DNA from: an uncultured Kordiimonas sp.
GTDB taxonomy: Bacteria; Pseudomonadota; Alphaproteobacteria; Sphingomonadales; Kordiimonadaceae
NCBI GenBank assembly: GCA_947503625.1
Contig: CANNEK010000002.1
Coordinates: 124,001-188,000 of the forward strand
Reading direction: 5' to 3'
DNA: 64,000 nucleotides
Shown here: in pieces, positions 32,154 through 62,784 of the stretch
Position numbering within the stretch: the first letter of the stretch is position 1
Layout of the letters: every line of letters begins with the position of its first letter
Program-made: the position numbers and the translations under genes
The notes under the pieces: generated by a model
The model's database searches: none
Seen by the model: only the letters and a program-made list of their open reading frames with translations
Told to the model about the DNA's origin: nothing

Positions 32154-33959
32154 ATGACAACAAACCCTGAAAATATGAGCGCATTGCGCGCCGAGCTGAA
32201 ATCACGCGGCCTGAACGGCTTTATCGTGCCCCTGACGGACGAGCATATGAGCGAATATGTCGGTGCCTATGCGGGCAGGCTTGGCTGGCTTACCGGGTTT
32301 GGTGGCAGTGCAGGCAATGCTGCAGTGCTGACAGACAGCGCAGCCATTTTTGTTGATGGCCGCTACACCCTGCAAGTACGCGAGCAGGTCAATGCCGATA
32401 TTTTCGCCCCCCTGCATTTTCAGGAATATCCCCTGCTGAAGTGGGTCGCAGACCATGCCGGTGAAGGCGCGAAAGTAGGATACGACCCCGAACTTGCCAC
32501 CATCGGCTGGGTAGAGGACGCGGCCGCACAGCTTGCCAAAGCAGGCATTGAGCTGGTGGCGGTTGACCGCAACCCCATCGATGCCGTGTGGACCGCCCGG
32601 CCCGCGGAACCGCTGAACCCTGTTGCTGCCCACGATGACAGATATGCAGGCCGGACGGCGGCTGAAAAACGCGCTGATGTTGCGGACGTGCTTGCAGCCG
32701 AAGGCGCAGACGCCGCCGTTATCACCATGCTGGACAGTGTGGCCTGGGCCTTCAACATCCGATCGAAAGACGTGGAAAACACACCGGTTGCGCATGCCTT
32801 TGCTGTTTTGCGCGCCGACGAAAGCGCCACGCTGTTCGTCAACCCGGAAAAAATGAATGAGGCCGTGCGCACCGCCCTTGGCAACCGGGTTTCTATAGAA
32901 CCGCGCAGTGCTTTTTACACGCATCTGGCAGAGCTGGGCGCCGAGGGCAAAACCGTGCTGGTGGACCGGGTGACCAACAACGCCAAAATCTTCAAAACGC
33001 TGGTTGATGCCGGCGCGGCTCTGGTGGAAGGCGAAGACCCCTGCATCCTGCCGAAGGCCGTGAAAAACACCACAGAGCAGCAAGGCGCGCGCGACGCACA
33101 CATCCGTGACGGTGCCGCCATCACAGAATTTCTTCACTGGCTTTCTGTGGAGGCCCCAACCGGCACCGTCGATGAACTGAAAGCGGTTGCCAAGCTTTGG
33201 TCGTTCCGCCAGAAGCGTGACCTGATCACAGACAACAGCTTCGACACCATCTCGGCTGCCGGGCCGAACGGCGCGCACTGTCACTATCGGGTGGACGAAA
33301 ACAGCAACCTGCCGCTTGAGATGAACAGCCTGTATCTTGTTGACAGCGGCGGCCAGTATCTGGACGGCACCACCGACATCACCCGCACCATCGCGGTGGG
33401 CAAGCCCACCGATGAAATGCGCGAGAATTTCACCCGCGTGCTCAAAGGGCATATTGCGCTCGCCACCGCAAAGTTCCCGAAAGGCACACCGGGCATGGCG
33501 CTCGATGCGCTGGCGCGCCGTCCCTTGTGGGACATCGGCCTTGATTATGACCATGGCACCGGCCACGGCGTTGGCTCTTTCCTTGCGGTGCACGAAGGCC
33601 CGCAGCGTATTGCCAAAGGCAGTTCCGATGTGGCGCTGGAGCCGGGCATGATCCTTTCGAACGAGCCGGGCTACTATAAAGCGCACGAGTATGGCATTCG
33701 CATTGAAAACCTGGTGCTGGTAACAGCAGCCTCCACAGACCCGGAAGACCGGGGCATGATGCAGTTTGAAACGCTGACGCACGCGCCCATTGACCGCAAT
33801 CTGGTGAATACCAGCCTGCTGACTAAGGGCGAACTGGCGTGGCTGAACGCCTATCATGCTGATGTGTTCAGGAAGATCAGCCCGCTTGTAGACGGCGACG
33901 CACTGGCGTGGCTGGAGGCTGCGACAGAGGCGATAAAGACTGACTTTCGGCTCACCTGA
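32154..33959 (+). CDS. Aminopeptidase P (Xaa-Pro aminopeptidase, M24B, long form)
   Basis: A 601-residue three-domain enzyme of the cytosolic eukaryote-like APP1 type. Two creatinase-like N-terminal domains are followed by the catalytic pita-bread fold from about residue 310. Metal ligands are visible: Asp in YLVDSGGQYLDG and TTDITRT, His in HGTGHGVG, Glu in LSNEPGYY and GIRIENL. It releases the N-terminal residue next to proline. AGGA sits 5 nt before the ATG; no signal peptide. With PtrB on the other strand it forms a cytosolic peptide-degradation pair. The GC-rich codon use leaves long open frames on the opposite strand, which are artefacts. Confidence 0.94.
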   Translation: MTTNPENMSALRAELKSRGLNGFIVPLTDEHMSEYVGAYAGRLGWLTGFGGSAGNAAVLTDSAAIFVDGRYTLQVREQVNADIFAPLHFQEYPLLKWVADHAGEGAKVGYDPELATIGWVEDAAAQLAKAGIELVAVDRNPIDAVWTARPAEPLNPVAAHDDRYAGRTAAEKRADVADVLAAEGADAAVITMLDSVAWAFNIRSKDVENTPVAHAFAVLRADESATLFVNPEKMNEAVRTALGNRVSIEPRSAFYTHLAELGAEGKTVLVDRVTNNAKIFKTLVDAGAALVEGEDPCILPKAVKNTTEQQGARDAHIRDGAAITEFLHWLSVEAPTGTVDELKAVAKLWSFRQKRDLITDNSFDTISAAGPNGAHCHYRVDENSNLPLEMNSLYLVDSGGQYLDGTTDITRTIAVGKPTDEMRENFTRVLKGHIALATAKFPKGTPGMALDALARRPLWDIGLDYDHGTGHGVGSFLAVHEGPQRIAKGSSDVALEPGMILSNEPGYYKAHEYGIRIENLVLVTAASTDPEDRGMMQFETLTHAPIDRNLVNTSLLTKGELAWLNAYHADVFRKISPLVDGDALAWLEAATEAIKTDFRLT

Positions 33960-33972
33960 GTTCGACAGCCAG

Positions 33973-34017
33973 TGAGTCACCTTGACTCATACTGCAAGGA
34001 ACTCTTAGTGTACTAAG
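33973..34017. promoter_or_regulatory. Two dyads upstream of the SIR2-NTPase gene
   Basis: TGAGTCA-cct-TGACTCA (33973-33989) and CTTAGT-gt-ACTAAG (34004-34017) are perfect inverted repeats in the AT-rich promoter region of the defence-like gene. The first begins 14 nt after the aminopeptidase stop. No T-run follows, so neither is a standard terminator. A regulator site is possible; the first could also be a weak transcription-blocking hairpin. Confidence 0.4.
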
Positions 34018-34102
34018 TATATTAAGGTCGGTAGGGTCGATGATTATAGTAAGCCAAGAGTATGCATTATAGTTTGACAAACTAGCTTGTAAGGAACACA
34101 TC

Positions 34103-36556
34103 ATGGATGACACTCTTGAGGAAGCTATAAACTCAATTGCCGCTCGTGGAACAATATGTTTCCTCGGAGCAGGCTTTTCCATAGATGGACGTGACGCCTA
34201 CGGGCAAAACCTTCCGACATCAAATGAGCTGGCGGCGGAGATATGCGCAGTAATAGGCATTCCTGCCGACAGCAATCAATCACTCTCCAGCCTTGCGGAG
34301 TATTGTCAAACGGATCCACTGTTAGCGCCAAAACTCAACGAATTATTGCTCAAACGACTTACCGTCTGCGACCCTTCGCCTAGCCAGAAGCTGTTACTTG
34401 GCGCCCCATGGCGGTCCATATTTACAACTAATTTTGACGACTTGGTGGAAAGAGCGCTTCCATCAGAGCAATGCCAGATCATTGGGCCGACCATAGATGT
34501 ACATCGCGTAAACCCCAGCAAGCTCCCCATATATTACTTACATGGTAGAATTTTAGATTTAACAGAAGCCGCCACATCCCCAAACCTAGTCTTGGCAGAA
34601 AGCAATTATTTAGGGCTGCATCAACGAAACAAAAACTTATACTCAATGCTTCTCAATGAGGTGCATTGTGCGCGCAAGATATTCTTCATCGGCTGGTCCG
34701 CGCAGGACTTAAAAATAGCAGAGGCATTGCTAGCGGCAAGTGAGCATATACGACACAAATCGGTTGTAATTTGCGGCCCCAACGAAGACATAATTACAGT
34801 TAAGAACCTTGAGAAATACGGTGCCGTCTATCCTATCGGCTTAAGTGGGTTAACAGATCTATTCCCGACTGATTTTAGCGCAAAGGATATGGAAGAAAAC
34901 CTATCATTTGTTAAAAAAGTCGAGAGAAGCAATGCCGCAAATCAGATCGAAAGCGATGATCTGGACCATCTAATACTAACGGGAGAATTTGACCTTTCCA
35001 AGTATCGCAAACAAAAGAGCTCTGATGGTGACGACAGACGCTATTGCATCGAGCGCTCAAAAAACCTGGAAGAAATATTTAAAACTTCCAGCGAACATAT
35101 TCAAAGGTTTCTTGTTACAGCAGATATAGGAAATGGAAAGACTACTTTTCTCGAACAAGTAGCATACAGCGGGCTCGAACGTGGATATGACGTTTTCATC
35201 GCCGATAACAAGCTTCAAGAAACATTTGATGAACTCGAGTTGTTACTTAAAAAACCGTCTCGGCAAATATTTATTGTGGATGACATCGTTCGAAACAAAG
35301 CCTTGGCTTCGTTCATAGGTAAACGATTACCCGATCTAAGCATGCTCATCTGCTCCAGCAGAGGAGAGTTCGATGGCGGACAGTTTGAGAACGTTTCAAA
35401 TATTTTGGGCGGCGCGACGAAAGAAGTAGATATAAATGAATTGACTGACCAAGAGTTAATACAATGGGATTCCCTGCTAGAAAATTGGGGTTACTGGGAA
35501 GATAAAATAGCCCTGCCAGACGAAGGCCGTCTGCATTTCTTGAAACAAGACTGTGGTGCAGAAAACAGGTCCGTCATTTTATCAATTTTTAGATCATCAA
35601 GCGTTTCTAAGAAAATCGATTCTCTAGTGAACTTGTTTATTAACTCCAAACCGCAGCATCTGAATTCATTTATTGCCATTTTAATCAGCTCTCTGTGTCA
35701 AAATCACGTGGAGTGGTCCAACATCGTTCAGTGGCTAGGGATTGATGAAAGTGGGTTCAAGAAGGATATTCTCGACAGCGATGTATTAGATTTCATGTCG
35801 GACAGAAGGCAATGGCACAGATTCACTTCAACTCAGTTGGCAAGCTATATATTCCGGAGTTACAGCTTCGACGAAGAAGTAATCGTTAGAATTTATACTG
35901 AAATCGTAAAAAATACTGCTCAAAGTGCAAACGATCCAAGGTCCGGTGACGAATTCAAAGAGAATATGAAGGAATTGTTAAAGTATCGGTTTCTAACTGG
36001 ATTGTTCGGTGACGATGCTTCAGCATTGTTATCAATTGAAGCCGTATACCGGAAGCTTCGAGACGTTCCACGCATAAGACAAAACGACCAATTTTGGTTA
36101 CAATTTTCGATGTCTAAGCTGGCAATCAACAATCTGGAAGATGCTGAAAAGTACATCAACACAGCGTTGGGAATTGCAAAAGGGTACGGTCTTGACTACT
36201 CGCCGCATCAAATTTTGGATCAGAGGGTTCGCCTTTACCTTCAAAAAAACAGCCAGAAAAAAGGAGTCTTCAACACCATAGAACTCAATCAAGCGTTAGC
36301 AGACCTGACTGATTCGCTGCATCACAAAGACTCTGACTTAATTTATCCGATGCGGTCAGCTACATATTTAGATACTCTAATAGATATGCAGGTTGAGGAA
36401 TTTGACGAACGCCTGAAACAAAAAATGCTATCAACACTCGAAGAAATGCGAAGCGAAATAAGAGACATAAGCAGGTTACCGCGTTCTCGTCGAGGAGAGA
36501 CTAAAAAAATCAAAGATGCAGTTAACAATGCAATTATGAATCTTAAATATTCCTGA
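34103..36556 (+). CDS. SIR2-domain plus P-loop NTPase plus helical-repeat protein (candidate antiphage defence)
   Basis: An 817-residue soluble protein in three parts. Residues 1-280 are a SIR2_2-type NAD-hydrolase domain: CFLGAGFS (19-26) for NAD binding, TTNFDDL with the catalytic-site Asn near 110, LHG with the likely catalytic His near 147, and FIGWSAQDL near 195. Residues 330-560 hold a P-loop NTPase with Walker A ADIGNGKTT (340-348) and Walker B IFIVDD near 390. The remainder is helical with TPR-like spacing near 665-720. This is the layout of SIR2-STAND defence proteins (Avs5-like): a sensor triggers NAD depletion in infected cells. Codon use is AT-rich compared with both flanking genes, suggesting transfer. 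AAGGA precedes the ATG. It stands alone between two convergent housekeeping genes. Confidence 0.85.
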   Translation: MDDTLEEAINSIAARGTICFLGAGFSIDGRDAYGQNLPTSNELAAEICAVIGIPADSNQSLSSLAEYCQTDPLLAPKLNELLLKRLTVCDPSPSQKLLLGAPWRSIFTTNFDDLVERALPSEQCQIIGPTIDVHRVNPSKLPIYYLHGRILDLTEAATSPNLVLAESNYLGLHQRNKNLYSMLLNEVHCARKIFFIGWSAQDLKIAEALLAASEHIRHKSVVICGPNEDIITVKNLEKYGAVYPIGLSGLTDLFPTDFSAKDMEENLSFVKKVERSNAANQIESDDLDHLILTGEFDLSKYRKQKSSDGDDRRYCIERSKNLEEIFKTSSEHIQRFLVTADIGNGKTTFLEQVAYSGLERGYDVFIADNKLQETFDELELLLKKPSRQIFIVDDIVRNKALASFIGKRLPDLSMLICSSRGEFDGGQFENVSNILGGATKEVDINELTDQELIQWDSLLENWGYWEDKIALPDEGRLHFLKQDCGAENRSVILSIFRSSSVSKKIDSLVNLFINSKPQHLNSFIAILISSLCQNHVEWSNIVQWLGIDESGFKKDILDSDVLDFMSDRRQWHRFTSTQLASYIFRSYSFDEEVIVRIYTEIVKNTAQSANDPRSGDEFKENMKELLKYRFLTGLFGDDASALLSIEAVYRKLRDVPRIRQNDQFWLQFSMSKLAINNLEDAEKYINTALGIAKGYGLDYSPHQILDQRVRLYLQKNSQKKGVFNTIELNQALADLTDSLHHKDSDLIYPMRSATYLDTLIDMQVEEFDERLKQKMLSTLEEMRSEIRDISRLPRSRRGETKKIKDAVNNAIMNLKYS

Positions 36557-36557
36557 G

Positions 36558-36992
36558 CTACCCCTCTATCACCTCAAATTCAGTGGTGATTTCCGCCAGC
36601 GCAGCCATCTGGGCGGAGGCAGAGCAGTATTTTTCCATCGATAGCTGGATCGCACGTTCCACATGCTTGGGGTCGATATTGCTGCCCTTCACGAAAAACC
36701 TGGCGTGGATTTTATTGAAATAACGCGGGTGCTCGTCCACGCGCTCGCCTTCCAGTTCAACCCAGCAATCGGCAACATCCTGCCGGGCCTTTTTCAGGAT
36801 CATCACCACATCAATGCTGGCGCAGCCGCCCATGCCGAGCAGCAACATTTCCATTGGGCGGATGCCCTTGTCGTTGCCGCCGCTCTCGATGCCGGCATCC
36901 ATCACCACAGAATGGCCTGTGGGGCTTTCACCGATGAAGGTCATGTCGCCCGCCCATTTGATCACGGCTTTTTTGCTTGCTGCTTCTGTCAT
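36558..36992 (-). CDS. OsmC-family peroxide-reductase-like protein
   Basis: A 144-residue OsmC/YhfA-type protein. The two redox-active Cys are in GCASIDVV near residue 51 and EKYCSASAQM near 120, the spacing expected for thiol-dependent peroxidases of this family. The N-terminus shows the short AVIKWAGDMTFIGESPTGH pattern of the YhfA branch. The start was moved to ATG 36992, since the in-frame start at 37106 adds a low-complexity tail not seen in the family. Its stop lies 1 nt from the SIR2-NTPase stop, convergent. Confidence 0.88.
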   Translation of the reverse strand: MTEAASKKAVIKWAGDMTFIGESPTGHSVVMDAGIESGGNDKGIRPMEMLLLGMGGCASIDVVMILKKARQDVADCWVELEGERVDEHPRYFNKIHARFFVKGSNIDPKHVERAIQLSMEKYCSASAQMAALAEITTEFEVIEG

Positions 36993-37306
36993 GTCTGATC
37001 TCTTTTCTGTGTTTGCGCCCGTAAATTCGGCGTTTTCATGCCTTGCCTGCTCTTTTGGTCGCGGGGTCTGCACGGGTTGCCGCATGGCGGTTCGTTTCAC
37101 CAGCATTAGCGATTAGCAGGAAGATACGCAAGGCTTGGTAATGGCCCGGCACGACAGCAGCAAAAACGCGATAGCGATACACTCCCCAAAAGATAAAAAA
37201 ATTGCCCGCGCCCGACCAGACGGGACGGCGCGGCGCAAGCTAATTCCGGGTTCTGCCCGGATCCGCATAGCCCTGTTGAAAAAAGGCTATGCAAGGAAAG
37301 GCACGC
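36993..37306. other. Gap without recognisable gene
   Basis: These 314 nt between the OsmC start and the GST stop contain short open frames on both strands but none with a ribosome site, family motif or sensible composition. I see no strong hairpin or repeat. It presumably holds the OsmC promoter. Confidence 0.5.
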
Positions 37307-61819: not shown

Positions 61820-62209
61820 CTATGGGGCTAACATATCTCGAGTATAGCGAATTTCATACAACCTGTCATCTTTGAAGGATAAGTGTACCGTCTCCTTATG
61901 AATACTTGGATATGATAGAATCCACTTATCCGAATCCCATAGGCGATATGACTGATCCCTATCAAATACTAGGAAAGTGTCACCGTTTATTCCGCGATAA
62001 CCGACAATCTTTAATTTAGTTCGGTAAACCGGATTAGTAGTCTTACGAATTACGTCTCGTTTACTGTCTCCAATTTCCAGGCCTCTATATTCACCTTTGT
62101 TAATCACTCCATTGGAGTCAAAGATTGGCAGTATGTTTTCCCAAAAAAAGAAAAACGTACTAATCAAAGCGATAAAAACCGATATCCTTATTAAGATTTT
62201 TTTTAACAT
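61820..62209 (-). CDS. Membrane-anchored small protein next to Rhs tip (candidate immunity protein)
   Basis: A 129-residue protein with one N-terminal hydrophobic segment (about 5-25) and a soluble remainder rich in Lys, Asp and aromatic residues, probably periplasmic. I do not recognise the family. Its start overlaps the end of the Rhs C-terminal frame by 7 nt. Small genes placed directly after an Rhs C-terminal toxin usually encode its immunity protein, and a membrane anchor would suit a toxin acting in the envelope. Composition is clearly AT-rich. Role is inference from place and size. Confidence 0.6.
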   Translation of the reverse strand: MLKKILIRISVFIALISTFFFFWENILPIFDSNGVINKGEYRGLEIGDSKRDVIRKTTNPVYRTKLKIVGYRGINGDTFLVFDRDQSYRLWDSDKWILSYPSIHKETVHLSFKDDRLYEIRYTRDMLAP

Positions 62210-62784
62210 GACCCGTCTGCTCTACACGCTTCAACGTCATTAACCAACTGTTCTCGGTTAATCTGTAAGTTACTCACAGCTTCTGCTCCCGGCAAAACGG
62301 AGTTGCTGGGTGGAGAAAAAGTATTACCTGCTAATCCTGCAGCTATTCGAGCAAGTCCTACAGCTGCTGAATTACTATTCGCACCTCTACCAGGTTGCAG
62401 TCCCGGGACAGTTTCGTAGTCAGGATTACCTATTACTGCATTACCAACAGCTCTTGTGAGGGCGTCCGGAGCATTGATTTGTGAAGAAGTCAGTCTTTCA
62501 GGGGACCCACTATCTCCATTTAGAAAAGATACAAAATCACCTGCATAACCAGCATCTGCCCTATCTGTATCGTCACCCGTACGAGTCACGTTTATCAATG
62601 GAGCATCTATTGAATCGCCGGCTGGCCCAAAACTAAATCTATCTGTAATTTGATGTCGCCCATCTTCCCCAACAGACGTAACAATAACGAAGCCATGCTG
62701 TGGGTTTTTCAAGTTGCTTGGCACTTGACTAAGTGGCCTTCCTATAAAGAATGAATCTAATCCCGTTGGATCTGTATTATTCAC
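62203..62784 (-). CDS. Rhs C-terminal tip (candidate toxin domain), detached from its core
   Basis: A 193-residue open frame starting within the end of an Rhs core motif: NNTDPTGLD, the usual boundary between the conserved core and the variable C-terminal toxin. The tip of about 185 residues contains QHGFVIVTSVGEDGRH, RFSFGPAG and GRGANSNSAAVGLA, a His...SFGP...NSNS pattern. That faintly recalls papain-like or NlpC-type folds; I do not recognise a named toxin. The GTG at 62784 has no good ribosome site, so it may be a silent remnant or part of a frameshifted gene. The downstream overlapping gene may encode immunity. Confidence 0.5.
   Translation of the reverse strand: MNNTDPTGLDSFFIGRPLSQVPSNLKNPQHGFVIVTSVGEDGRHQITDRFSFGPAGDSIDAPLINVTRTGDDTDRADAGYAGDFVSFLNGDSGSPERLTSSQINAPDALTRAVGNAVIGNPDYETVPGLQPGRGANSNSAAVGLARIAAGLAGNTFSPPSNSVLPGAEAVSNLQINREQLVNDVEACRADGSC

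Follow-up and report, generated by a model that had tools for sequence, protein, structure and literature searches.

The gene at 34103-36556 (+ strand) of the window, the 64,000-nucleotide stretch of DNA from an uncultured Kordiimonas sp. analysed here, very probably encodes a divergent protein of AVAST type 5 (Avs5), which would act on its own as an alarm against phages. The bases for this reading are the domain order of the protein, its intact catalytic residues, its full-length kinship to EfAvs5 of Escherichia fergusonii, its position in a genomic slot that congeners have either empty or occupied by other ORFs, and the location of many relatives on mobile elements or near defence genes. It is probably a functional and, despite its divergence, ordinary Avs5 that belongs to a new branch within a type of system already described. 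A phage trigger, NADase activity, assembly or filament formation, and protection by the window protein are predicted by analogy with studied members of the group.

Domain organization and composition of the gene

The open reading frame (ORF) comprises 817 codons with an ATG start and no internal stops, and an AAGGA motif lies 7 bases 5' of the ATG. Pfam matches together with sequence and fold matches in the PDB describe an 817-aa protein composed of a SIR2 domain, an nSTAND NTPase, and helical repeats. The SIR2 domain, a predicted NADase (residues 1-260; 34103-34882, +), was delimited with Pfam SIR2_2 and the ThsA structure 8bto and contains GAGFS (22-26), TTNFDD (108-113), LHG (146-148, its HG pair at 147-148), and D202, in agreement with the intact NAD-site motifs noted previously. 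The P-loop nSTAND NTPase core (residues 318-450; 35054-35452, +), placed by Pfam nSTAND scores, carries ADIGNGKT at 340-347 (GNGKT at 343-347), IFIVDD at 389-394, and R420. A helical base with TPR-like repeats (residues 451-720; 35453-36262, +), defined by the helices of an AF2 model, includes the putative pivot residues Y649, W665, and Q667, and the final helices (residues 721-817; 36263-36553, +) are variable, with a mean identity of 27% to six close homologues versus 48-49% for residues 451-720. The AF2 model, built from a 37-row alignment (pLDDT 85.6, pTM 0.70), has the order SIR2, NTPase, helices. Its C-terminal half is all-helical except for short turns, with helices spanning 473-816, which agrees with the helical C-terminus anticipated from the sequence. 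A Pfam search of the protein gave no TPR or other repeat match in this half.

The gene has a GC content of 0.426 versus a mean of 0.538 (sd 0.044) over the 53 window ORFs, the gene included, as called by a simple longest-ORF rule. Its GC3 of 0.434 is the third-lowest of these (mean 0.596, sd 0.080), in line with the AT-rich, foreign-looking codon use described in the original prediction. The two lowest GC3 values among the 53 ORFs (0.377 and 0.278) belong to a pair of overlapping small ORFs of 129 and 193 aa at 61820-62784 (-), which have no Pfam match at E 0.001 and are perhaps another AT-rich insert.

Sequence and fold matches

Profile searches against SIR2_2 and STAND models, which had been proposed as a check, gave a clear match for the SIR2 part and borderline ones for the NTPase. 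Pfam SIR2_2 (PF13289) matches at E 3.9e-15 (56.6 bits versus a cut-off of 24.5), and the two nSTAND models score at their cut-offs (nSTAND3, PF20720, 27.2 bits with a cut-off of 27.2 as printed; nSTAND_NTPase5, 33.9 bits with a cut-off of 34). Six relatives score around the same limits, and three of the six pass nSTAND3, including L009, an EfAvs5-like Escherichia coli plasmid protein. The suggestion that the NTPase might be a distinct subfamily outside STAND is therefore not borne out, and the doubt about its motif spacing reflects divergence seen across the family.

Seven PDB sequences match the protein at E 1 or better, and the best of them, 9jap_A (residues 2-721, E 4.3e-27), is the only one to match beyond the SIR2 domain. 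This entry is identified as EfAvs5 by its title, "Helical structure of EfAvs5(SIR2-STAND)". It also ranks first by fold in VIA-align (789 residues, Z 27.2, rmsd 21.7 Å), where the high rmsd is presumably caused by domain arrangement. ThsA and DSR2 chains, aligned mostly over the SIR2 domain alone, occupy ranks 2-10 (Z 22.7 to 24.0), and rank 11 is a second Avs5, 9nc9 (Z 22.6, 681 aligned, rmsd 29.2). Foldseek likewise places 9jap first (E 4.9e-33), followed by 9nc9, 'AVAST5 filament' (E 9.6e-18), SAMD9 (E 3.4e-11), and then DSR2. The closest match by sequence and by fold is thus a defence protein and not a member of a non-defence NTPase family, which supports the earlier assignment to Avs5-type SIR2-STAND proteins, with the function of this particular gene drawn by analogy.

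L009 aligns with 9jap along its whole length (1846 bits) and served as a stand-in for EfAvs5 in identity comparisons. The window protein shares 18% identity with it overall, 15% over residues 451-640, and 11% over residues 721-817. These low identities count against the Avs5 reading, as do the high rmsd on 9jap and the nSTAND scores at the Pfam limit. PADLOC-DB 2.0.0 contains no Avs5-named match for the window protein. The same is true of the EfAvs5-like L009 (L009:5944-8493), indicating that this Avs5 lineage is not named in that database.

Catalytic, Walker, and pivot residues

The available text of PMC12931631 describes Avs5 as SIR2 plus nSTAND3 plus C-terminal repeats, with GAGxS, TTNxD, and HG/NG as its motifs; the window protein has GAGFS, TTNFD, and HG. 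According to that text, N110, D112, the P-loop GK, a conserved Arg, and a Tyr / Trp-x-Gln pivot (published as Tyr661, Trp675, and Gln677) are needed or conserved in PaAvs5-1. With this published description as a guide, all of these residues have counterparts in the window protein. N110, D112, D202, G345, K346, R420, Y649, W665, and Q667 are invariant in 7/7 rows of an alignment of the window protein with six plasmid proteins that were gathered by whole-protein tblastn with no pivot motif. In a larger, 83-row alignment N110, D112, D202, and K346 are present in 83/83 and R420 in 77/83. Since columns ~103-111 and 662-671 were the search patterns behind the 83 rows, invariance in these columns is partly circular, and conclusions rest on the seven-row set.

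The original description of Walker A and B as intact holds for GNGKT and IFIVDD, T347 included, but not for the first Gly of Gx4GK[ST], which is Ala in the ADIGNGKT of the window protein. A residue other than Gly is usual at this position in the 83-row alignment (Ser 56, Gly 23, Ala 4), and L009 has Ser. Of the six closest homologues, L029, L030, and L031 lack R420, and L029 and L030 also have Gly in place of the second Walker B acid; judged from these substitutions, the NTPase of the closest branch is itself loose.

Site 147 is His in 23 of the 83 rows, Asn in 58, and Tyr in 2. These labels cluster on the tree, with 5 changes for all three versus a shuffled mean of 22.1. Active sites of the HG and NG types are reported for Avs5 in about equal numbers (PMC12931631, available part).

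Relatives and phylogeny

A scan of one genome per species with the seven-row profile identified 141 loci encoding relatives, spread over several phyla, of which 80 were kept. The short rows L072, L085, L099, L102, and L104 were left out of the 83 rows, as were the fragment L002, the partial minus-strand loci L003 and L013, and a broken Zymomonas plasmid copy (L010); the other partial loci, L014-L025, were likewise unused. In a tree of the quick type of the program, with branch support from SH-aLRT alone, the window protein groups with six rows (SH-aLRT 100; 34-43% identity), all with an HG active site. Five of the six are alphaproteobacterial (Devosia, Brevundimonas, Sphingomonas, Agrobacterium, and a Rhodobacteraceae bacterium) and the sixth is from a Flavobacteriaceae MAG. 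An alphaproteobacterial host was assumed for the window itself as well, its best full-length 16S matches among plasmid records being to Roseibium (89.2%) and Ensifer (89.0%).

Homologues are distributed sporadically. The seven-row profile matches 14 of 385 genomes drawn across the class, the window's own included, and apart from that one only G164 has a near full-length match. Scanning genome contigs and viral contigs with the single protein gave no close relatives, which were found by the seven-row profile, and tblastn of 50,697 phage records gave no relatives. Relatives are present in 26 plasmid records (15 covering at least 80% of the query in one place) and in 11 viral contigs, of which 8 have a match covering most of the length. 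Seven plasmid regions that were read have no recurring annotated partner gene, and an IS transposase lies within 2 kb in four of them. Within the same family, the nearest sequence is an N-terminal fragment in genome G022 (L002; 53% identity over residues 3-88) flanked on both sides by transposase-like ORFs, which were named by eye. A short HATPase-like ORF (L002:1035-1782) lies directly 5' of this fragment.

Within the closest branch, residues 451-720 are better conserved than the SIR2 domain, with mean identities of 48% (bootstrap 45-52) versus 40% (36-44), whereas the helical half is not the better conserved in the six other branches compared. When each branch is realigned alone, residues 451-640 give the same order, with bootstrap ranges that overlap for this segment by itself (43-53 versus 36-44). 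The contrast is post hoc, from one of seven branches and with domain limits chosen by us, and the effect is modest, a hint of a shared ligand and no more. Better conservation of residues 451-720 suggests a ligand common to hosts from Devosia to Sphingomonas and the Bacteroidota MAG, possibly something other than the phage protein JADA. That this HG-type, mainly alphaproteobacterial branch reads one conserved phage feature is, however, a speculative proposal that we consider improbable. The last 97 residues (721-817) are variable in the branch as well (29% mean identity), and loss of C-terminal helices is reported to abolish immunity by PaAvs5-1 (available part of PMC12931631), both of which argue against it.

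Genomic slot and neighbourhoods of homologues

The gene lies between an upstream M24 aminopeptidase P-like gene (32154-33959, +; Pfam Peptidase_M24 and Creatinase_N_2) and a convergent, downstream OsmC-like gene (36558-37106, -; Pfam OsmC, E 1.2e-18), the convergent housekeeping flanks noted previously. The stops of the gene and of OsmC are one base apart. Outside this slot (33960-36557), only 1 of the 52 other window ORFs has a PADLOC match at E 1e-5, a weak one to PD-T4-6 (1.4e-7), so the gene is solitary as described, as far as the window extends. No inverted repeats marking an insertion element were found when the locus was searched for repeats, and promoter-like and terminator-like sites at the locus are no more numerous than in shuffled sequence.

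None of 18 congeners, 4 of which are represented by genomes less than 90% complete, has the gene. Long DNA matches to the aminopeptidase flank are present in 17/18 (G010 has a 30-base match only), and the OsmC flank has a DNA match in 17/18. The interval between the two flanks was read in 17 congeners (loci L144-L160). The flanking genes are convergent, as in the window, at 15 of these loci; at the remaining 2 they share one orientation and are separated by 10-12 kb. The slot is empty in 3 of the 15 convergent loci, where 20, 44, and 138 bases separate the aligned ends, and the other 12 hold one to four other ORFs of at least 90 aa. On the simplest view, the gene has moved into a position whose content differs among members of the genus. 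This absence from congeners, together with the sporadic distribution, the varied neighbours, and the presence of homologues on plasmids and viral contigs, is not the pattern of a core gene inherited only vertically.

Genes adjoining homologues match 231 PADLOC models at 1e-10, versus 25 models, including CBASS-type effectors and Qat, for genes more than 5.5 kb away; each set has 138 genes (of 266 near and 150 far ORFs, the far set, which is the sole comparison, coming from long contigs only), and the contrast counts PADLOC models, not genes, with ORFs from a crude longest-ORF caller. Among the matches listed for the near genes are type IIG, II, and IV restriction enzymes, GajB, DpdF, AbiEii, PsyrT, and a type I specificity subunit. 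These counts suggest the expected association with defence islands for homologues at large. At five of the six loci of the closest branch (L029 left out) the neighbours are mostly housekeeping or family-less genes, such as DNA polymerase I, a UvrB-like helicase, a TonB receptor, NAPRTase, and one HSDR_N protein, and these neighbourhoods are less telling than those of homologues at large. A gene for nicotinate phosphoribosyltransferase, an enzyme of NAD salvage, adjoins the Rhodobacteraceae homologue (L031:6663-7952), which is probably chance.

Proposed mechanism and alternative explanations

By analogy with studied Avs5 proteins, the window protein would at rest be closed, with its C-terminal helical sensor folded onto the nucleotide-bound NTPase. 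Binding of a phage protein to this sensor would allow the nucleotide-bound NTPase to open or rearrange and the protein to assemble, as EfAvs5 does into filaments. The clustered SIR2 domains would then hydrolyse NAD+ to ADP-ribose and nicotinamide, after which infection would abort. Avs5 filaments are reported to stack from homodimers and are apparently required for activity (PMC12700824, available part), and NAD+ drops threefold by 10 min after infection in cells with PaAvs5-1 (PMC12931631, as far as its text is available).

The same NAD-depletion effector could instead serve a SIR2-STAND alarm that answers to a cue other than a phage protein, such as plasmid entry or a stress metabolite. Segment by segment, identity to the EfAvs5-like L009 over residues 451-817 is only 11-28%, and other SIR2 systems respond to different signals (gRNA-ssDNA for SPARSA and gcADPR for ThsA, from the titles of PDB entries), consistent with such a cue. 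However, the three Avs5 clades tested in PMC12931631 are described in its available text as acting against phages and responding to the phage protein JADA, and we regard a non-phage cue as fairly unlikely.

Less likely again is that the gene, once acquired, has decayed or fallen silent and now serves no function, an explanation compatible with kinship to Avs5. In addition to the foreign composition, no consensus promoter was found upstream on the gene's strand, and the closest same-family sequence is the transposase-flanked fragment L002. Set against decay are the 817 open codons, the retained catalytic and pivot residues, and the AAGGA motif 5' of the start.

Comparison with known systems

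That the protein is a DSR2- or ThsA-type defence sirtuin and not an Avs5 is highly improbable, although its SIR2 domain resembles both and their structures follow 9jap directly in the fold ranking. The domain aligns with ThsA of Thoeris (8bto) at Z 24.0, with 245 residues aligned within residues 1-260, and matches the PADLOC ThsA model at E 2.2e-12; that match covers only positions 11-201 of 478 in the model and ends at residue 205 of the protein (residues 6-205/817), and the matches to most structures end at about residue 260. DSR2 has the SIR2 fold in common (best chain, Z 23.6), but its chains align at most about 360 residues versus 789 for EfAvs5, and the NCBIfam Dsr2 equivalog NF041819 scores 20.4 bits versus a cut-off of 1400. 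DSR2, ThsA, SPARSA, and SIR2-HerA were all rejected as homes for the protein because their matches stop at or close to residue 260 or because less than half the number of residues aligns. Human SAMD9 (9zjr) aligns over 649 residues (Z 15.2, rmsd 9.5) at 11% identity, a resemblance of fold only, and the available part of PMC12931631 reports that PaAvs5 was likewise matched to SAMD9.

Avs5 proteins are the closest in architecture. Compared by the description in the available text of PMC12931631, PaAvs5-1/2/3 of Pseudomonas aeruginosa share with the window protein the order SIR2 (PF13289), nSTAND3 (PF20720, at its cut-off in the window protein), and repeats (putative in the window protein), Asn110, Asp112, the Tyr/Trp/Gln pivot, and a poorly conserved C-end. 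The same description gives PaAvs5-1 an NG site and GPAGSGKT, a canonical Walker A, where the window protein has HG and ADIGNGKT. The branch thus extends Avs5 with a classical His active site at the position where PaAvs5-1 and L009 carry Asn, and it would offer a way to compare HG with NG enzymes and to learn if the branch senses the same jumbo-phage protein; apart from this branch and the naming gap in PADLOC-DB 2.0.0, the gene represents expected biology. EfAvs5 (9jap) is the best match in both sequence and fold and has the full-length SIR2-STAND-helical architecture in common with the window protein. Its relative L009 belongs to another branch, with NG in place of HG, and shares the catalytic Asn and Asp, the Walker lysine, the Arg, and the W-x-Q pivot.
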